Assembly (NCBI GenBank): GCA_903881085.1
Contig: CAIRSA010000131.1
Span: 1-64,000 of the forward strand
DNA from: an uncultured Acidobacteriia bacterium
GTDB lineage: Bacteria > Acidobacteriota > Terriglobia > Bryobacterales > Bryobacteraceae
DNA length: 64,000 bases
Reading direction: 5' to 3'
Part shown: positions 12,637 through 53,816 of the stretch, one piece after another
Numbering within the stretch: the first letter of the stretch is position 1
Layout: each line of letters opens with the position of its first letter
The notes under the pieces: model-generated
Databases searched by the model: none
What the model saw: the letters and a program-made list of their open reading frames with translations, nothing else
Told to the model about the DNA's origin: nothing
Translations under genes and position numbers: made by a program

Positions 12637-13440
12637 TTACTGAGGGGTTACAACGATCTTACCCTTCATATTCGGGTGGATCGCACAGTGAAAGTTGAAT
12701 TCGCCTGGTACGGTAAATGGAATCGCCTGGGAACCGCTACCAGCCTGCATATTTGCTGAAATCCAACCGCCGGGGAAATCATCTGCGATATTATGCGCAA
12801 CCACGTCGTCGTTGTAGAAGGTAACCATGCTACCAGCCTTCACCGTGAGAGTGCCGGGCACGAAAGCATAGTTCTTGATAATCGCTCCGGGAACCGCGCC
12901 GAGCGAAGTCAAATTACCGTTCTTAAAATGTCCTGCACCGCGAAACACCCAATCTTTTCCCTGGCCGGCCTGGAGATGGCAGTTGGCGCAGGTCTGTGAG
13001 TTTTGTGGCAAAGTGGAATAGCCGCCCGTGGGGGTATAGCCAACATATTCCCATTCGCCGTTGCGAAGGGCTCCGTAAGCCGTGCCAAATCCTTTTTCCT
13101 TGCGCATCGTGTTCACCGTAACGGCTGCTGCCGGATCTTTAATGTAGCGTCCATTCCGGTCTAACACTGCGTTGCCATCGGCGTCTTTCAGTGCATTTAC
13201 TGTTTCGAGAACGACAACTGATCCATACGGATAATTACCCTGACTGCCGTCTGCGACACCCGCGGCAATCGTATTGCCGTAGATGCTTCGCACCTGTTTA
13301 TTGTCTGAGCGGTCAAGTACATAAAACTGTGCCCATTTCTGATATCCTTCTGGAAACCCAACACGATCCGTGGCGGGTGCCTGAGCGAAAATGGAAACAC
13401 TTGTAACTGAAATCAAGATCCAAGTTAATTGTCTTTTCAT
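12637..13440 (-). CDS. Cytochrome P460-cupredoxin fusion protein
   Basis: A 267-residue exported protein with two redox domains. After a signal peptide (residues 1-20, cut near FAQ-AP), residues 28-172 resemble cytochrome P460: FPEGYQKWAQFYVLDR, then a C-terminal CANCH at 151-155 for covalent haem attachment. Residues 183-267 form a plastocyanin-like cupredoxin with type-1 copper ligands H216, C252, H255 and M258 (HCAIHPNM). The ATG at 13440 has AAAGGAGAGGT directly upstream. P460 enzymes oxidise hydroxylamine or act on NO; the attached cupredoxin could be its electron acceptor. Whether this protein is catalytic is open. It lies 90 nt past the histidine kinase on the same strand. Confidence 0.87.
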   Translation of the reverse strand: MKRQLTWILISVTSVSIFAQAPATDRVGFPEGYQKWAQFYVLDRSDNKQVRSIYGNTIAAGVADGSQGNYPYGSVVVLETVNALKDADGNAVLDRNGRYIKDPAAAVTVNTMRKEKGFGTAYGALRNGEWEYVGYTPTGGYSTLPQNSQTCANCHLQAGQGKDWVFRGAGHFKNGNLTSLGAVPGAIIKNYAFVPGTLTVKAGSMVTFYNDDVVAHNIADDFPGGWISANMQAGSGSQAIPFTVPGEFNFHCAIHPNMKGKIVVTPQ

Positions 13441-13530
13441 ACCTCTCCTTTGAGCGATACTAAGGATTATCATGATTTCGAGAGTCTGACAATCTTTTGG
13501 CTAATATGTTTCGAATTGTTAACCGCGAGA

Positions 13531-14889
13531 CTAAGATGATCGAAGATCGAGCCAAAAAGTAGACCCCGCTCCTGGCTGGCTATGTACTTGTATTTGAGTG
13601 TGATGAGCCTCAGCAATCCCTTGTGCGATTGCAAGACCGAGTCCAACTCCTCGATTTCCACTGCGGGCAGGGTTGGCCGTATAAAACCGTTCAAATATAT
13701 GGTGCAATATTTCGCCGGGCATCCCTTCGCCGTTATCTTGAACGGATATGCGAACCGCACTTCCTGTTCCCTGCACCATGACTGTAACCAGGCCTCCCCT
13801 TGGCGTGTGCTTGCAGGCATTATCGAGCAGGATTAACAGAAGTCTGCCAATCGCATCGGCGTTTGCATTTGCCGGCCTAACTCCACTGGCAACATCCAGA
13901 AGCAGTTCGACACCACACTCTTCTGCTCTGGATTGGCAGTTTTTGGCGACTTCCGCGGCGATGGTCCCGATGTTGACGGGCGTCAGTTTCAGTTCCGATT
14001 TTCCTGCATCCGCCCTGGCGATCGTCAGTAGCGCCTCCGTCAGTTCTGTCATGCGTTCCGATTCCTGCTTGATTTCCGTCAACGCTTGGCGATATTCCGC
14101 CGCGCTCCTTTCCCGGCGCAACGCCAGTTCCGCGGTGGCGCGAATAATGGCTAGAGGCGTTCGCAATTCGTGAGAGGCGTCCGCTGTGAAGCGTTGAATT
14201 CGAATCACTGCCGAATCCAGTCGTCGCAGCATATCGTTCCACGTCTCGGACATGCGTTGCAGGGCATCGCCGGTTTGGCTAACCATGAGGCGTTGCGACA
14301 GATTCTGCACACTGATTGTTCGCGCTACTTCGGTGATCTGATCCACTGGGGCCAGAGCCCTGCCGCTAATCCAATATCCGCCGAGGCAAGATGCAATCAT
14401 CACGGCAGGAATCAGAAATAAGAGCAGGTTGCGCATCATATCGAGCACCTCCGTTACCTCTGTCATTGGCGCGGCAACAACCGCTTTGTATGTCCGGCCC
14501 GCGTTGATGAATTGGCCACCGCGGAGCCTCAGGTTGCGGCCGTTGACGATGGCGTTGGACTGTCCTTGCGTCTCTGGCAGGAGCGGTGGGCCTGCGGCCG
14601 GAAGTAGCTGTTGTCCATTGGGAGTGCGCAGCACGATCCACTCGCCGTTCACCACTTCGCGTGCAAATTCGGCGAGTTCGTCTTTCAACTGGGGTTCATC
14701 CAGCAAGGGTGTCTCCACCTGTATCACGGTACGCAGGCTTTCAATCTGCGACGACAACCTGTTATCAACCGCCTGTAGCAGCCGGTGTTCCAGCGCGAAC
14801 CAAAGCGAGATGGCAAACATCAACAAGCCGCCTAGCAATACGGCGGAATACCAAACGGTGAGTTGAACGCGAATGGAATACGCTGCCAT
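13531..14889 (-). CDS. Sensor histidine kinase (EnvZ/CusS-like layout)
   Basis: A 452-residue membrane kinase. It has TM1 at about 12-32, a periplasmic sensor of about 120 residues, TM2 near 153-174, HAMP at about 175-228, the dimerisation/phosphoacceptor helix with SHELRTPL (His240), an N-box with LLDNACKHTPRGG, G1 DNGEGMP and G2 GVGLGLAIAQG. The ATG overlaps the response-regulator stop (TAATG), so the two are coupled. The layout and its position divergent from an RND efflux operon resemble metal-responsive CusS/CzcS systems, although no metal-binding cluster stands out in the sensor domain. The signal is therefore unknown. Confidence 0.9.
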   Translation of the reverse strand: MAAYSIRVQLTVWYSAVLLGGLLMFAISLWFALEHRLLQAVDNRLSSQIESLRTVIQVETPLLDEPQLKDELAEFAREVVNGEWIVLRTPNGQQLLPAAGPPLLPETQGQSNAIVNGRNLRLRGGQFINAGRTYKAVVAAPMTEVTEVLDMMRNLLLFLIPAVMIASCLGGYWISGRALAPVDQITEVARTISVQNLSQRLMVSQTGDALQRMSETWNDMLRRLDSAVIRIQRFTADASHELRTPLAIIRATAELALRRERSAAEYRQALTEIKQESERMTELTEALLTIARADAGKSELKLTPVNIGTIAAEVAKNCQSRAEECGVELLLDVASGVRPANANADAIGRLLLILLDNACKHTPRGGLVTVMVQGTGSAVRISVQDNGEGMPGEILHHIFERFYTANPARSGNRGVGLGLAIAQGIAEAHHTQIQVHSQPGAGSTFWLDLRSS

Positions 14890-15575
14890 TATTCATCCCC
14901 CTGAATGGAGTATCCAATGCCGCGCACCGTGCGTATGAGCCGGGCCTCCCCTGGCGCCTCAACCTTCACTCGAAGCAATCGAACAAATGCGTCAAGCGTG
15001 TTGCTTTCGATTCCCTGGTCGTGGTGCCACACCTGTTCGAGGAGCGTGTCGCGTGTTACGACCCTGCCTGAGTTGCGCATCAAAATTTCCAGGATGGAGA
15101 ATTCGGTCTTGGTCAGATGGATGATTGTGCCCGTTCGAGATGCTGTGTGTGCGGTAGGGTCGAGTCGCAGATTGCCAACCTCGTAGCAGACAGGTTGGGG
15201 GATCGGTCCGCGCCGCGAGACCGCGTTGACACGGGCAGCCAGCACTTCAAATGAAAACGGTTTGGTGAGGTAATCGTCTGCTCCCAGGTTTAGGCCCTTC
15301 ACAATGTCGTGAGTCGCGTCGCGCGCTGTGAGCATAAGAATGGGAGTCTGGCGCTTTTCCGCGCGCAGCCGCTTCACCACTTCAAAGCCGTCCATTTCGG
15401 GCAGCATGCCGTCGAGAATCAACAGATCATAATGGCCAGTCAGCGCGTAGCTGAGGCCACTTTTGCCATCGGCGGCGACGCTCACGGCGTGTCCCTCTTC
15501 GCTCAGGAACTGCTTCAGCAATCCGGCCATGCGCGCGTCGTCTTCCACCACCAAAACTCTCATCCTGTTGACCAT
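14889..15575 (-). CDS. OmpR/PhoB-family response regulator
   Basis: A 228-residue regulator. Receiver domain: acidic pair D12/D13, phospho-acceptor D55 (LLILDGMLPEMDG), conserved T and K (MLTARD, LTKPF). From residue 130 there is a winged-helix DNA-binding domain (LTKTEFSILEILMRNSGRVVTRD, then VRLLRVKVEAPGE and RGIGYSI). The ATG at 15575 is chosen for its AAGG site; an internal ATG at 15563 is also possible. It is partnered with the overlapping kinase gene. Two pairs of heptamer repeats just upstream, shared with the divergent efflux operon, suggest that it controls both itself and the pump. Confidence 0.9.
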   Translation of the reverse strand: MVNRMRVLVVEDDARMAGLLKQFLSEEGHAVSVAADGKSGLSYALTGHYDLLILDGMLPEMDGFEVVKRLRAEKRQTPILMLTARDATHDIVKGLNLGADDYLTKPFSFEVLAARVNAVSRRGPIPQPVCYEVGNLRLDPTAHTASRTGTIIHLTKTEFSILEILMRNSGRVVTRDTLLEQVWHHDQGIESNTLDAFVRLLRVKVEAPGEARLIRTVRGIGYSIQGDE

Positions 15576-15586
15576 GATATGCTGCC

Positions 15587-15634
15587 TTTCTGAAGAGTTT
15601 CTGTAGGTCAATCCGCTTTCAGACAATTTTCAGA
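15587..15634. promoter_or_regulatory. Probable response-regulator operator (two direct-repeat pairs)
   Basis: The 93-nt spacer between the response regulator and the TolC gene holds TTTCTGA-agag-TTTCTGT (15587-15604) and TTTCAGA-caat-TTTCAGA (15617-15634). Each is a pair of 7-mers separated by 4 nt, an 11-bp period, the geometry bound by OmpR/PhoB-type dimers. The repeats share TTTC(T/A)G. No confident -35/-10 pair is seen next to them. Confidence 0.55.
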
Positions 15635-15668
15635 ATCGCCGTCCTAAAATTGGAAGCTGAGGTTAAAG

Positions 15669-16931
15669 GTGACAACCGTTCCGCTTTTACGAATCGCATT
15701 GTGTCTTTCGCTCGCATTGCCCGCCTTCGCGCAAACTCCCGCGAAGGTTTTGACGCTTGAGGAGTGCGTGAAACTGGCTGTGGCTGCGCCTTCGCAGATC
15801 AGTGTTGCCCGACTGGAAACGGAGGCTGCGCTGTCTGGCATTGCCCAGGCACGGGCTTCATTCTTGCCGCAGGCAGGCCTGAACACGGGCTTCGTACACA
15901 ACACGTCTGCATCGTTTGTTGCTTTGAACGGAACACGGGAATGGATCGCGTTGGCCGGCGGTTCGGTTGAGTTCGATTCCTCAGGCCGGCTGCGCGCGGA
16001 ATTGAACCGGGCGCGCGCCGCGCACCAGGCCGCTACGGCCAGCGTGGCCATCACGCAGCGTGATTTGAAACGCGCCGTAACAACCTCTTATTACCGGGTG
16101 CTGCTTACCCGGCGCCTGGCCGTTGTGGCCAAGATGCTTCTGGCCGATAGTGAGAACTTTGAGGCGCGCACGAAGAAATTGTATGAGGGCGGGGAAGCCG
16201 CCCGTGCCGATGTTGTGAAGGCCGCGGCGCAGTCGTCGCAATTCCGCCAGGCGCTGAGCGCGGCAGAGTTGGAAGCGAAGATCGCCAATCAGGAATTGGC
16301 TTCTTTCTGGACTCGCGACGTTACCGACGAGTTGGCGATTGAAGACATTCTGGATAAGCCCTTGCCCACGCCGGAGGCCGAAGCCGCTGCTGCTGCGCCT
16401 TTCATGAACCGCATTGAATTCAACTTGCTTGATGCGCAACGCCGAGGTTTGCAAGCCGAAGCGCGACGCGAATTGGCGGCCATGCGGCCCGTTGCGACTA
16501 TGGACTTCCGCTTCGGTATCGACTCCAATATTCTGAGCCTGCGCGACCGCGGCGCTTCGACAACGATTGGCGTGAACATTCCGCTGTTCGATTGGCACAA
16601 GGCGCGCGAGGCATCGAATGCGTTTCTGGCCCGCGCCAAACAAGTGGATGCCAACCGGGCTATCGCCGAGCGCGCGCTGTCGAAAGAGTATCAGGCTGCA
16701 TTGGTTCGAGTGAAGCAATACTACGCCCAGGTGGCCATGACGAGCGATGCGCAGAAACTGGCCGAAGAAGACTTGAAGCTGAGCCGCCTGCGGTACGAGG
16801 GCGGGGAAGGCTCGGCACTCGACGTAGTCACCTCGCAAAGCCAGTTGGCCCAGGCGCGTTCCACTTACTTTGCAAACCTCACGAATTATCTGAACGCGCG
16901 AGCGGATCTGGAAGTTGCCGCCGGAAGGTAA
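15669..16931 (+). CDS. TolC-family outer membrane efflux protein
   Basis: A 420-residue outer-membrane channel. It starts with GTG after GAGGTTAAAG and has a signal peptide (LLRIALCLSLALPAFA). The rest shows the internally duplicated TolC layout of long coiled-coil helices: the N-terminal LTLEECVKLAVAAPSQISVARLE and the second half's SRLRYEGGEGSALDVVTSQSQLAQARSTY signature. First gene of a three-gene efflux operon; the adaptor ATG follows 8 nt after the stop. A trimer would form the channel across the outer membrane for the RND pump. Confidence 0.9.
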   Translation: MTTVPLLRIALCLSLALPAFAQTPAKVLTLEECVKLAVAAPSQISVARLETEAALSGIAQARASFLPQAGLNTGFVHNTSASFVALNGTREWIALAGGSVEFDSSGRLRAELNRARAAHQAATASVAITQRDLKRAVTTSYYRVLLTRRLAVVAKMLLADSENFEARTKKLYEGGEAARADVVKAAAQSSQFRQALSAAELEAKIANQELASFWTRDVTDELAIEDILDKPLPTPEAEAAAAAPFMNRIEFNLLDAQRRGLQAEARRELAAMRPVATMDFRFGIDSNILSLRDRGASTTIGVNIPLFDWHKAREASNAFLARAKQVDANRAIAERALSKEYQAALVRVKQYYAQVAMTSDAQKLAEEDLKLSRLRYEGGEGSALDVVTSQSQLAQARSTYFANLTNYLNARADLEVAAGR

Positions 16932-16939
16932 GGATTCAC

Positions 16940-18241
16940 ATGAAGAAAACGATTATCATCGCCACCGCGGTAGTTTTGTTGATGCTGAGCGGCTGTGCCA
17001 AGGAAAAGAAAGAGGAAGAAAAGCCGCCGGTTTTTGGCGTGCAAGTGGACAAGGTTGAGCATGAGCCAATTCAGCGCGTCATCATCGCCGAAGGGGTTCT
17101 TCGCGCCCTTGAACAATCGGCTGTAACACCGAAGATCAGCGCGCCAGTGTTGAAGTTCTTCGTCAACAAGGGGTCTGCCGTTACTGCCGGTCAGGTGCTT
17201 GCGACGTTGGAGAGTAAAGATCTGGAGGCCGCCGTAGTCGATACCAGAGCGGCTTACGCACAGGCTGAGGCGAACTTCCGGAACGTGTCGAAGGCGGCGG
17301 TGCCAGAGGGGATGGTGAAGTCGTTGGCTGATGTGCAGTCCGCCCAGCAGGGGCTGGATGCGGCTAAGCGCCTTGTGGATAGCCGTGAAAAACTCTACAA
17401 AGACGGGGCGCTGCCGCGGCGGCAGGTGGATGAAGCGCTCGTGCTGTACGCCCAGGCCAAGGCCCAGTTCGATACGGCGAATAAGCATCTGGAATCCGTG
17501 CAAGGCGTGAGCCGCGTGGAGGATGTAAACATCGCCCGCGCGCAGGCAGACTCCGCCAAAGGTAAGATGGACGCCGCCCGCGCCCAGTTGTCTTATGCCG
17601 AAGTGCACAGCCCTATCTCTGGCATTGTCTCCGAACGAATGCTGTTCCCCGGCGAAATGGCGCAAGCCGGAACCCCACTGTTAAACGTGATGGACGTTTC
17701 CAATGTGATCGCCCGCGTTAGCATCCCGCAGGCACAGGCAGGCTTTGTGCACGTCGGACAAGCAGCGAAGGTTGTCGCCAGCGATGGCACTGCGGCGGCG
17801 GACGGCAAGATCACGGTCATCAGCCCGGCGGTGGATCCGCAGGCAACAACGCTCGAAGTATGGGTGCAGATGTCGAATCCCGGCGGAAGATTGAAGCCCG
17901 GCGGTACCGTGAAAGTGACGATTCAGTGTGACACCCTCAAGGACGCATTGGTGGTTCCCACCGTCGCGTTGTTGCCGCATGAAGACGGCAGCACCGCGGT
18001 TTATGTGGTCAACAAAGAAAATTTGATCCACGTGCACAAGGTGCAAACAGGCATTCGCAATGCCGACAAGACGCAGATCGTGAGCGGCGTGCAAGAGGGC
18101 GACGTAGTGGTTGTCGAAGGGGGCGTTGGGTTAGGCGATGGCGCCAAGGTGAAGATTGAAAAGCCCGGCGAAGGCGAAAAGAAGGACGATGAGAAGGGTA
18201 AGAAGGACGACGATCACAAAGAGGACGAGAAGAAGAAATGA
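16940..18241 (+). CDS. RND efflux periplasmic adaptor lipoprotein (HlyD/AcrA type)
   Basis: A 433-residue membrane-fusion protein. The ATG at 16940 follows AAGGTAAGG and starts a lipoprotein signal with lipobox LSGC (Cys about residue 19). Next come a half-lipoyl segment (KISAPVLKFFVNKGSAVTAGQVLATLES), a long coiled-coil hairpin (about residues 100-205), the second half-lipoyl (YAEVHSPISGIVSERMLFPGEMAQAG) and beta-barrel/membrane-proximal domains. The last 30 residues are an unusual Lys/Glu/Asp-only tail (KKDDEKGKKDDDHKEDEKKK). It links the RND permease to the TolC channel; ATGA overlap with the permease gene. Confidence 0.9.
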   Translation: MKKTIIIATAVVLLMLSGCAKEKKEEEKPPVFGVQVDKVEHEPIQRVIIAEGVLRALEQSAVTPKISAPVLKFFVNKGSAVTAGQVLATLESKDLEAAVVDTRAAYAQAEANFRNVSKAAVPEGMVKSLADVQSAQQGLDAAKRLVDSREKLYKDGALPRRQVDEALVLYAQAKAQFDTANKHLESVQGVSRVEDVNIARAQADSAKGKMDAARAQLSYAEVHSPISGIVSERMLFPGEMAQAGTPLLNVMDVSNVIARVSIPQAQAGFVHVGQAAKVVASDGTAAADGKITVISPAVDPQATTLEVWVQMSNPGGRLKPGGTVKVTIQCDTLKDALVVPTVALLPHEDGSTAVYVVNKENLIHVHKVQTGIRNADKTQIVSGVQEGDVVVVEGGVGLGDGAKVKIEKPGEGEKKDDEKGKKDDDHKEDEKKK

Positions 18242-21200
18242 GCGAGCCCATTCAAAATAACGATGCCGCTCGCGAGCATTGGACGGCGCAGCACGGCAAG
18301 CCGATTATCTTCGTCATCCTGACCTTGGTCGCCGTGGGAATCTATCTGGCGTTTACGATTCCGATCGCGGTGTTTCCTTCAACGGACTTTCCACGAATCG
18401 TCATCGGCGCGGACAACGGCGTTGCGCCAATCGATCAGATGCTGGTGACCGTCACTAAGCCGATCGAAGAGGAGATGAACGGCATCCTCGGCCGCGAGCG
18501 AATGAAGTCGGTAACGAGTCGCGGTACTGCGGAAATCAATCTGTATTTTTCGTGGGACGTCGATATGTACCGCACGCTGGAACTGGTGAACGCGGCTCTG
18601 GCGCGCGTGCAACCCACGCTGCCAGCGACCGCCCGTTTGAACGCGCAGCGCCTTACCTTTGCGGCGTTTCCGGTGATGGGCTACAGCCTGACTTCGCCGA
18701 ATATTCCTCCAACGCGCCTATGGGAAATTGCCACGTATGAGATCAAGCCACGGCTGAACCGGCTGAACGGCGTGGCCACTGTTGTGGTGCAGGGAGGCCG
18801 CGAGCCGGAGTTCGAAATCCGCGTCAACCCTTCGAAAATGGCGCAGACCGGCGTGACCGTGCCCGCGCTGCTCGAAGCCGTTCGGAAGAGCAACATGGTC
18901 GATTCGCCGGGCCTGATCGAAAACAATCACCAGTTGGTGCTGAGTCTGGTGACCGGCCAGGCGCGCACGCCGGAAGAGATTTCCAACCTTGTCGTTAAGA
19001 CTACGAACGCGAATTTGCCTGTGCGAGTGGGCGACATCGCCAGCGTCGTGAATTCGGTGAAGCCAATCTATACTTCCGTTACGGCCAATCAGAAGCCGGC
19101 CGTGCTGGTGAACATCAAGCGCCAACCGAATGGCAACACCGTGGAAGTGGCGGATATGGTGCACGCCGAAATTGAAGCGATTAAAAAGTCGCTGCCGCAG
19201 GGAGTGGATCTCCAGCCGTTCTACGATCAATCGGAAATCGTTAATGATTCGATCAGCAGCGTGCGTGACGCGATTCTCATTGGCCTGATCCTGGCAACGA
19301 TCATCATGGTGCTGTTCCTGCGCGACTGGGGCACGTCGCTGGTCGCGGGCTTGGTGATTCCCGCTACCGTAGCGGTGACGTTTATTGCACTGCGCCTATT
19401 CGGGCAGAGCTTCAACCTGATGACCCTTGGCGGTCTGGCCGCTGCGGTTGGCCTGGTGATTGACGATGCGATTGTAGTCGTCGAAAATATCGTGCTGCAT
19501 CGCGATGCGGGCCAGTCGCGTTCTGAGGCGATTCGCAGCGCGCTGCGCGAAATCACCAAGCCGCTGATTGGCTCCACCATCACGCCGATCGTTGTATTTC
19601 TGCCGCTGATTTCGATCACTGGCGTGACCGGCGTGTTCTTCCGCGCGCTGGCAATTACGGTGGGCATGTCGCTGCTGACTTCGCTTTTCCTCGCACTGAC
19701 TTGGACCCCAACGGTGAGCCACTACATGCTGCGCTCAGTGCCGAAAGTACATGATGACAAGAGCGGCGTTATCGGTTCCCTGGTTCGCCTCTATGAATTC
19801 GCACTGCGTGGCGCGCTTGCCCACCCGTTGGTGATGTCCATTCTGGTGTTTGGAATCATCGGCGGATCCTACGCCTGCTTCAACGCGCTTGGCACGGACC
19901 TGTTGCCCGCAATGGACGAAGGCGGCTTTATTCTCGATTACCTGATGCCGGCCGGCTCGTCGCTTGCCGAAACGAACAAAACGATCGCCGAGGTGGAAGC
20001 AATTGTCCACTCGTTCCCCGAAGTGCAAAACACATCCCGCCGCACCGGCCTGCAACTTGGCCTGGCGCAGGTGACCGAAGCGAACCGCGGAGATTTCACC
20101 ATCCGCCTGAAACGCGACCGCAAGCGCTCCTCGGAAGAAATTATCAAACTGATGCGCGAAAAAGTGGGAGACGAACTTCCGCAATTGAAGGTTGAGTTCC
20201 CGCAGTTACTTCAGGACATGATCGGCGATTTGACCAGCGCTCCGGAGCCGATTGAGATCAAGCTCTTCTCGCAAAACGCGGCTCTTCTGCGCGAGTGGGC
20301 GCCGAAGCTCGGCGACGCGATCAAGAAGGTCCATGGCATTGTCGACGTGCTGGATGGAATTGAGAACACCATCAGCGGCCCCGCTCTCGTTTTCAAGGTG
20401 GATCAGGCCGTCGCAGCCCGCGCCGGCTTCAGCACGGAAGAGGTGGAACTCGATGCCAGCGCCGTGATGCAGGGCGAGCCCACCGCCATGCCGTCGATTT
20501 TGAACGACCGGCCCTATACCATCCGCGTGCGGTATCCGGAAGAGTCCCGCTCTTCGGTGGAAGCAATTAAGAACGCGCTGCTGGTCAGTTCCAATGGCAA
20601 AACCTCGACGCTCGGCGCGCTCACCAATGTGATTGAACTCCCCGGCCAGTCCGAAATTCAGCGCGAAAACCTGCAGCGCGATGTTGCCGTCACCGCGCGG
20701 TTGGAAAACCTCAGCCTCGGCGACGCGATCAAATCGGTGAAGAAAGTGGTCACCGATATTGGCATTCCCCCAAGTATCCGCATTGAATATGGCGGGGCGT
20801 ATCTGGAACAGCAGAAGTCGTTCCGCGATCTGGTGATGGTGTTGCTGCTGGCCATCGTGCTGGTGTTCACGGTGCTGCTATTCGAATTCGGCGGGTTTGC
20901 CGCTCCGATTTCGATCCTCGCTTCGGCGCTGCTATCCACGTCCGGAGTGTTTCTGGCCCTATTGATCACCAAAACGAGCTTCAACATTTCGTCGTTCATG
21001 GGGCTGATCATGGTAATTGGAATCGTCGCCAAGAACGGAATCCTGCTGCTTGATTCCGATCAACGTTTCCGAGCCTCCGGGGCATCCGCTTTTGAAGCGA
21101 TGGTGCAAGCCGGCGAACGGCGCTTGCGTCCGATTTTGATGACTGCGCTGGCAACCATCGCTGGCATGGTTCCGCTGTCGCTGGCCTGGGGCGCTGGGTC

Positions 21201-21312
21201 GCAGATGCTGCAACCGCTGGCCATCGCCGTAATCGGCGGCGTGCTGGCCAGCATGGTGTTATCGCTGATTGTTACGCCGGCGGTTCATTACTACCTGTCG
21301 CACCGCGACTAA
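18238..21312 (+). CDS. RND-family efflux permease (inner membrane)
   Basis: A 1024-residue transporter with the RND plan: TM1 near residues 20-40, a large periplasmic loop, TM2-6, the proton-relay DD pair in TM4 (VGLVIDDAIVVVENI), a second large loop and TM7-12 (EFGGFAAPISILASALLSTSGV, FNISSFMGLIMVIGIVAKNGILLLD). The porter-domain opening FPSTDFPRIVIGADNGVAP is shared with HAE/HME-type pumps; drug and metal substrates cannot be told apart by eye. It starts inside the adaptor stop, and its own stop overlaps the convergent sialidase-like gene by 4 nt. Proton-driven export through the TolC partner is expected. Confidence 0.92.
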   Translation: MSEPIQNNDAAREHWTAQHGKPIIFVILTLVAVGIYLAFTIPIAVFPSTDFPRIVIGADNGVAPIDQMLVTVTKPIEEEMNGILGRERMKSVTSRGTAEINLYFSWDVDMYRTLELVNAALARVQPTLPATARLNAQRLTFAAFPVMGYSLTSPNIPPTRLWEIATYEIKPRLNRLNGVATVVVQGGREPEFEIRVNPSKMAQTGVTVPALLEAVRKSNMVDSPGLIENNHQLVLSLVTGQARTPEEISNLVVKTTNANLPVRVGDIASVVNSVKPIYTSVTANQKPAVLVNIKRQPNGNTVEVADMVHAEIEAIKKSLPQGVDLQPFYDQSEIVNDSISSVRDAILIGLILATIIMVLFLRDWGTSLVAGLVIPATVAVTFIALRLFGQSFNLMTLGGLAAAVGLVIDDAIVVVENIVLHRDAGQSRSEAIRSALREITKPLIGSTITPIVVFLPLISITGVTGVFFRALAITVGMSLLTSLFLALTWTPTVSHYMLRSVPKVHDDKSGVIGSLVRLYEFALRGALAHPLVMSILVFGIIGGSYACFNALGTDLLPAMDEGGFILDYLMPAGSSLAETNKTIAEVEAIVHSFPEVQNTSRRTGLQLGLAQVTEANRGDFTIRLKRDRKRSSEEIIKLMREKVGDELPQLKVEFPQLLQDMIGDLTSAPEPIEIKLFSQNAALLREWAPKLGDAIKKVHGIVDVLDGIENTISGPALVFKVDQAVAARAGFSTEEVELDASAVMQGEPTAMPSILNDRPYTIRVRYPEESRSSVEAIKNALLVSSNGKTSTLGALTNVIELPGQSEIQRENLQRDVAVTARLENLSLGDAIKSVKKVVTDIGIPPSIRIEYGGAYLEQQKSFRDLVMVLLLAIVLVFTVLLFEFGGFAAPISILASALLSTSGVFLALLITKTSFNISSFMGLIMVIGIVAKNGILLLDSDQRFRASGASAFEAMVQAGERRLRPILMTALATIAGMVPLSLAWGAGSQMLQPLAIAVIGGVLASMVLSLIVTPAVHYYLSHRD

Positions 21313-52693: not shown

Positions 52694-53816
52694 GTTCACT
52701 GAATCCGTCATCCGCGAGATGTCGCGCATTGCGATCAATCACAATGCTGTCAATCTGGCCCAGGGCTTTCCGGATTTCGCCGCCCCGGCCTGGATCAAGC
52801 ATGCCGCGCAGGACGCGATCGGCAACGACCATAACCAATACCCCATCACCTGGGGCATCCGTCCGTTCCGTTCCGCTATTGCTGAAAAGTATAGAAGGCA
52901 CTACGGCCTGGACTTAGATCCGGAGCGCGAAGTTACTGTCTGCTGCGGCGCCACCGAAGGCATGGTGGCAGCTTTGTTGGCAGTGGTGAATCCCGGCGAC
53001 GAGATCATTGTCTTTGAGCCCTATTACGAAAACTACCACCCTGACATGATGCTCTGCGGGGCACAACGCAGGCTGGTCTCTCTACATGCTCCTGATTGGA
53101 CCTTTGACCCGGACGAACTGCGCGCTGCCTTCACCGCGAAGACCAAGGCCATCATCATCAACACGCCCAATAATCCCACGGGAAAGGTTTTCACGCACAA
53201 AGAACTGGCCCTCATCGCCGAGCTGTGCGTGGAGCACGACGTGCTTTGCATTACCGATGAGATCTACGAACACATCCTCTACGACAATGAGCAGCACTAC
53301 CCCATCATGACCTTTCCAGGCATGCGCGAGCGCGCGATTCTGGTGAACAGCATGAGCAAGACCTACTCGGTGACCGGCTGGCGCGTGGGCTGGGTGCTGG
53401 CTGCGCCCGATCTGACCGACACGATTCGCAAGGTGCATGACTTCCTCACCGTAGGTGCGGCCACGCCGTTGCAACACGCCGGAGTGCTGGCGCTATCGCA
53501 GCCCGATGAATTCTATAGGAATCTTTCGGAAGAGTACAGAGGACGAAGAGATCATTTAATCGGATCCCTGGAATCGGCCGGCTTCAAGTGTTTCGTCCCC
53601 AAGGGCGCATACTACGTGATGACCGACATCTCTGGCTTCGGCTACGCGAGCGATACGGAGTTTGTGATGCACATGATCCGCGATGTGGGAGTCGCCGCCG
53701 TGCCTGGTTCGAGCTTCTTCCACAATCCGCAGGACGGCGCCAAATTTATACGCTTTTGTTTTTGCAAAAAATATGAGACGCTGGAGGAGGCTGGACACCG
53801 GTTAAGGAGGTTGTAA
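52608..53816 (+). CDS. Class I/II PLP aminotransferase (kynurenine-aminotransferase-like)
   Basis: A 402-residue fold-type I aminotransferase. Motifs: NAVNLAQGFPDFAAP near the N-terminus, VTVCCGATEGMVAALLAVVNPGDEI, IIINTPNNPTGKVF, CITDEIYEHILYD, and the PLP lysine in NSMSKTYSVTGWRVGW; FCKKYETLEEA at the end. The pattern matches the KAT/GTK and methionine-aminotransferase-like group; exact amino acid unknown. The start is the ATG at 52608 inside the SLT gene, since conserved residues begin by about residue 25 and no better start lies downstream. Confidence 0.9.
   Translation: MSLPASRTQVQPLETKNVRPRFRSERTAEFTESVIREMSRIAINHNAVNLAQGFPDFAAPAWIKHAAQDAIGNDHNQYPITWGIRPFRSAIAEKYRRHYGLDLDPEREVTVCCGATEGMVAALLAVVNPGDEIIVFEPYYENYHPDMMLCGAQRRLVSLHAPDWTFDPDELRAAFTAKTKAIIINTPNNPTGKVFTHKELALIAELCVEHDVLCITDEIYEHILYDNEQHYPIMTFPGMRERAILVNSMSKTYSVTGWRVGWVLAAPDLTDTIRKVHDFLTVGAATPLQHAGVLALSQPDEFYRNLSEEYRGRRDHLIGSLESAGFKCFVPKGAYYVMTDISGFGYASDTEFVMHMIRDVGVAAVPGSSFFHNPQDGAKFIRFCFCKKYETLEEAGHRLRRL

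Follow-up and report, generated by a model that had tools for sequence, protein, structure and literature searches.

Two inverted TTCAG boxes form a probable divergent promoter between a two-component system and an RND efflux operon in an uncultured acidobacterium

How might one short spacer control both the two-component system on one side of it and the divergently oriented efflux operon on the other? The locus lies in the window (the whole 64,000-nt stretch of DNA from an uncultured Acidobacteriia bacterium analyzed here), and its features are collected in Table 1. The regulator exceeds the cut-offs for both of its domains (PF00072, 105.9 bits; PF00486, 87.5 bits), and its nearest NCBIfam subfamily is cztR_silR_copR (TIGR01387), for which it scores 223.3 bits and falls below the cut-off of 279.2. 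The permease stays below the cut-off of the CusA/CzcA heavy-metal model TIGR00914 (460.2 against 701.45); it scores higher with the multidrug model, yet lies below that cut-off too. Downstream of the kinase, a gene on the minus strand (12637-13473) fuses a cytochrome P460 domain with a cupredoxin domain and may be co-transcribed with the two-component system.

Table 1. Genes and putative promoter elements at the divergent locus (window coordinates)
Feature	Coordinates	Strand	Basis
Sensor histidine kinase (HisKA, HATPase_c)	13531..14889	-	nearest NCBIfam model cztS_silS_copS, below cut-off
OmpR/PhoB-family response regulator, probable start ATG at 15563	14889..15563	-	Response_reg and Trans_reg_C
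-10-like TATCAT of candidate regulator promoter, 10 nt past box	15574..15579	-	sequence; equal position in relatives
Regulator-facing box TACAG-N6-TTCAG, one mismatch	15590..15605	-	aligned with 23 exact boxes of relatives
Pump-facing box TTCAG-N6-TTCAG, exact	15618..15633	+	kept in four other divergent regulator/TolC genomes, one with one mismatch
-10-like TAAAAT of candidate TolC promoter, 11 nt past box	15645..15650	+	sequence; positional signal in aligned sites
TolC-family outer membrane factor, GTG start	15669..16931	+	TIGR01844, below cut-off
RND periplasmic adaptor subunit	16934..18241	+	TIGR01730, above cut-off
RND permease (AcrB/AcrD/AcrF family)	18238..21312	+	ACR_tran, 730 bits

The original prediction placed four heptamers with an 11-bp period in this spacer, and all four are present: TTTCTGA at 15587 and TTTCTGT at 15598 form a left pair, and TTTCAGA at 15617 and again at 15628 a right pair. 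The 93-nt spacer was shuffled 5000 times with dinucleotides preserved, and heptamer pairs with at most one mismatch were counted: 0.22% of the shuffles had two separate pairs at period 11, and 2.4% had two pairs sharing any one period between 8 and 22. Because shuffles yield pairs at these rates, the repeats judged from the spacer sequence alone, without relatives, are suggestive and not decisive. The closest homologues of the regulator conserve one unit in their spacers, TTCAG-N6-TTCAG, which keeps the 11-bp period and often occurs as two inverted pairs. Read against these relatives, the four heptamers are best described as two inverted tandem pairs. The earlier reading of both pairs as repeats running the same way does not survive the comparison, as the relatives show one unit used twice in opposite orientations. 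The left pair retains its 11-bp period, but what had been taken for a plus-strand TTTCTG repeat corresponds to a minus-strand TACAG-N6-TTCAG (15605..15590) in a shifted register. The proposed 7+4+7 footprint is well supported in expecting an 11-bp tandem site at this regulator family and wrong in its unit. The consensus TTTCWGA-N4-TTTCWGA was dropped; its W mixes both strands of one half-site, so the genome scan proposed with it would seek the wrong motif. The simple pattern TTCAG-N6-TTCAG is not specific by itself, with 40 matches in the window's own genome against 13 for a reversed control. Six of the 40 are one repeated 16-mer, TTCAGTCGCAATTCAG, found on contigs C5, C26, C373, C404, C405 and C510 of G000, which is probably a repeated element.

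Comparison with related genomes had been set as the check on the prediction, and the box proved to be kept at homologues of the regulator, defined as the 75 places matching at E<=1e-66 among 399 genomes of the class. In 39 of the 75 (22 of the best 30 and 17 of the next 45), the upstream stretch of about 260 nt contains an exact box on one strand or the other, so that tandem half-sites about 11 bp apart, as expected of the OmpR/PhoB family, stand upstream of the regulator's own gene in these cases. If one mismatch is tolerated in the first half-site, at its second or its fifth base, 12 more homologues qualify and the count rises to 51/75, although the homologues are related to each other and the counts are not independent events; the remaining 24 are without a box even with the allowed mismatch. 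Replacing N6 by N5 or by N7 as a spacing control gave 0/75 each. Among less similar regulators the box was found in none of 17 best matches of other genomes (L014-L030) and in none of six own-genome paralogues (L216-L221), both being small control sets. More distant regulators of other genomes (L032-L110) have a box at most 100 nt upstream in 2 of 79 cases (L042, 4962-4977; L044, 4930-4945), which come from Microbacterium oleivorans and a Streptomyces and may be coincidental or may point to an earlier use of the box. L031, the single close regulator among the matches listed in the contig scan, has its one box 1.1 kb upstream. Another candidate, L117, looked promising by its spacer letters, but the position reads as coding sequence without promoter context.

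The position of the box relative to the predicted promoters is equally regular. We aligned sites chosen by the box alone, 24 facing the regulator, the imperfect one of the window included, and 25 pointing the other way, and found T....T exactly 10 nt past the second TTCAG in 18/24 and 18/25, respectively. At other offsets from 3 to 23 nt the same pattern reached at most 7/24 and 4/25, and at offset 2 it occurred in 6/24 and 10/25. The window's imperfect box entered this alignment shifted by one base, which could only reduce the counts. Ten further sites upstream of predicted targets have T....T at +10 in 7 cases and the final T in all 10. A distance of 10 nt from box to -10 is thus usual in the relatives, and the pump side of the window is off by one base; because its -10 sits at N11, a search for the box with a strict -10 at N10, which leaves two matches in the own genome, misses the window. 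The second TTCAG lies near the -35 region with a -10-like hexamer at a fixed distance, which would also suit a reading of TTCAG as the -35 element of an alternative sigma factor promoter. We regard this as very improbable, since the first half-site recurs at exactly 11 bp and N5 and N7 spacings do not, a need that sigma recognition does not have. The class II arrangement, in which an activator site replaces the -35 element beside a -10 at fixed distance, was found here on the evidence of sequence, and the geometry of an OmpR/PhoB-family site in that position makes activation of both promoters, and with it positive autoregulation, probable.

The same geometry bears on where the regulator begins. 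The ATG at 15575 falls within TATCAT, the candidate -10 of the regulator promoter, and the first residue of the regulator homologues corresponds to the codon at 15563; the likelier start is therefore 15563, which would leave a very short leader. The spacer, given originally as 93 nt, is then probably 105 nt.

Can the box be tied to this regulator and to the divergent arrangement? A TolC homologue is divergently adjacent to a regulator homologue in four other genomes (G012, G002, G136 and G018). All four spacers hold a pump-facing box, the copy in G012 with one mismatch, and three of the four also hold a regulator-facing box, exact in G012 and G018 and with a mismatch in G136; none was seen in the G002 spacer. 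An unguided scan of the 399 genomes with CTGAA-N6-CTGAA-N{4,34}-TTCAG-N6-TTCAG returned the inverted double box in 9 genomes, and the reversed-pattern control returned 0. In five of these nine genomes (G018, G232, G159, G265 and G011) the site sits immediately upstream of a regulator homologue. Genes were read at seven of the nine, that is, at all except G411 and G305. The G088 site, about 3.8 kb from a regulator homologue, falls between a YncE-like propeller gene and a 3-keto-disaccharide hydrolase-domain gene. In G353, an exact double box (L228, G353:C21, 2882-2941) has a TolC-adaptor operon on one side and, on the other, a CopR-like regulator distinct from the window's, as named from a reading of the translations. 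The G353 site counts against strict specificity and suggests that regulators of more than one subfamily may use the box. It also lends something to the proposal that the boxes in the window are sites for some other response regulator encoded in the window's own genome, which holds at least 47 scored homologues of the window's regulator, and that the adjacent system is merely a neighbor. We consider this improbable, because the box follows the homologues of the window's regulator and is absent from the less similar sets described above, and because more than half of the unguided composite sites (5/9) are at a regulator of the window's type.

We therefore turn to what the two boxes would do. Some members of the OmpR/PhoB family repress their own gene, and the regulator-facing box in the window is degenerate and near the start codon, as might be expected if it served negative autoregulation while the pump-facing box activated. 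This division of roles seems unlikely to us: in the relatives the distance from box to -10 is equal on both sides, which fits activation both ways, and AgrR, a characterized relative in a similar position, autoregulates positively (PMC7380067). A further proposal does without protein sites and takes the feature to be an RNA or DNA hairpin. The segment 15580-15650 does fold at -19.9 kcal/mol (z -3.5), and the spacer contains an imperfect 16-nt inverted repeat, but two opposed boxes by themselves yield such a hairpin, which by the promoter assignment would be mostly untranscribed. We give the hairpin almost no credence, because relatives vary in the gap between the boxes or have a single box, whereas the spacing within the box and the distance to the -10 are fixed.

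We favor, with a probability of roughly 0.83, the reading that the spacer is a divergent promoter in which two inverted boxes for the adjacent OmpR/PhoB-family regulator activate transcription on both sides. A dimer of the regulator would bind two TTCAG half-sites 11 bp apart in head-to-tail fashion, each box would occupy the -35 position and be followed by a -10 hexamer at 10 nt on the regulator side and at 11 nt on the pump side, and phosphorylation of the regulator by the kinase would lead to recruitment of RNA polymerase in both directions, raising both the TolC-adaptor-RND operon and the regulator's own operon. Comparison shows the box, its spacing and orientation, the fixed distance to the -10 and the fact that the box recurs both at homologues of the regulator and before other gene families; binding by the adjacent regulator, activation rather than repression and dependence on phosphorylation are what we infer. 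Against this reading stand the 24 homologues devoid of a box, the G353 site, and, in the window itself, the imperfect regulator-side box and the one-base offset of the pump-side -10. The idea that one small region serves both regulator and pump is well supported by the conservation of the box, its exact spacing and the fixed -10 on both strands, with the amendment that the left pair is inverted and carries one mismatch.

Several known systems resemble the proposed mechanism. In the pho box of PhoB, an 11-bp tandem repeat takes the place of the -35 element and the -10 follows about 10 bp beyond. The layout here is alike in each of these respects, and differs in its half-site and in that PhoB governs the phosphate regulon. 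A PhoB-sigma4 complex is cited in two papers on PmrA (PMC3973317, PMC4660055). The same papers describe PmrA (BasR) as an OmpR/PhoB-family protein that binds head-to-tail to the tandem half-sites CTTAAG and XTTAAT, separated by 5 bp and thus at an 11-bp period, with the -35 element inside the box. The tandem layout at this period is common to both systems, whereas the half-site is TTCAG here and TTAA in PmrA; no CTTAAG/XTTAAT match was found in the spacer with up to two mismatches. The regulator and kinase of AgrR/CopR/PcoR systems belong to the same broad subfamily as the window's pair, but the core of their box is an inverted 6-4-6 repeat, ATKACANNNNTGTMAT, in contrast to the tandem TTCAG (PMC7380067). 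The AgrR study also presents AgrR as binding upstream of its own gene and as an apparent type II activator. The sole match of ATKACANNNNTGTMAT in the window, with up to two mismatches, is at 52738, far from the spacer. With the PmrA and AgrR boxes absent from the spacer and the tandem layout shared with PmrA, the mechanism would be PmrA- and PhoB-like with a different half-site.

How far does such a box reach beyond the efflux pump? A profile built from 44 box sites ranked the window's pump-side box first in its own genome (E 0.003) and the regulator-side box fourth (E 0.26), both being training sites. Between them came a site on C240 (E 0.03) before a gene that resembles DUF3108 weakly and below cut-off, and one on C302 (E 0.05) before a YncE-like propeller; several propellers fall below the Pfam YNCE cut-off, and "YncE-like" is used here as a description. 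In 61 relatives the profile found 29 places in 15 genomes at E<=0.05, with about 3 expected by chance. Seventeen are non-training places, eight of them within 11 kb of a regulator homologue, and genes were read at 14 of the 17 (all except L253, L254 and L260). On contig 4 of G033, six boxes, one a training site, precede six genes or operons, namely two DUF5916/CBM9 genes, a YNCE propeller, a chromate transporter, a DUF1259 gene, and a 3-keto-disaccharide-hydrolase-like gene (below cut-off) followed by a solute-binding protein and apparent ABC transporter genes. OMP_b-brl_4 barrel proteins with carboxypeptidase regulatory-like domains are predicted targets in G013, G018 and G037, and single targets are DUF5916 in G039, DUF5666 in G053, DUF1259 on another G033 contig, TolC in G044 and a YncE-like gene in G008; the G057 site is flanked by TolC and a YncE-like gene. 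When the 30 top-ranking homologues of the own-genome propeller were checked in a directed test, 10 had an exact box about 30-95 nt upstream that faced the gene, and two of these 10 sites had already been used in the profile. Among 20 further TolC homologues, two have a box upstream, and both of their genomes also have a regulator homologue. At L003 (2200-2680; G037:C814), an apparent chromate transporter remnant adjoins the regulator, and a box at 2627-2642 precedes a gene resembling the 3-keto-disaccharide-hydrolase-like gene of G033.

On balance we lean toward the view that Acidobacteria-like bacteria have, across the class, an envelope or metal-stress regulon that has gone undescribed and of which the box is the mark. 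In it, a single two-component system would act through one composite promoter (TTCAG-N6-TTCAG-N10-TNNNNT) on an RND efflux operon, YncE-like beta-propellers, DUF5916 proteins, OMP_b-brl_4 outer-membrane proteins, ChrA, DUF1259 and a solute-binding ABC transporter, with a regulator message that is almost leaderless. Neither a TTCAG box nor an acidobacterial regulon of this kind was found in the open literature searched; the kind of mechanism is familiar, and the set of target genes looks undescribed. For the window itself, the motif has been corrected and a likelier start codon for the regulator proposed. Little is known of the regulatory sites of these soil bacteria, and the box offers a precise, checkable consensus. 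Through it, an orphan two-component system would be connected with an efflux pump as well as with DUF1259, DUF5916, DUF5666 and the YncE-like propellers, so that work on one regulator may provide leads on all of those families.
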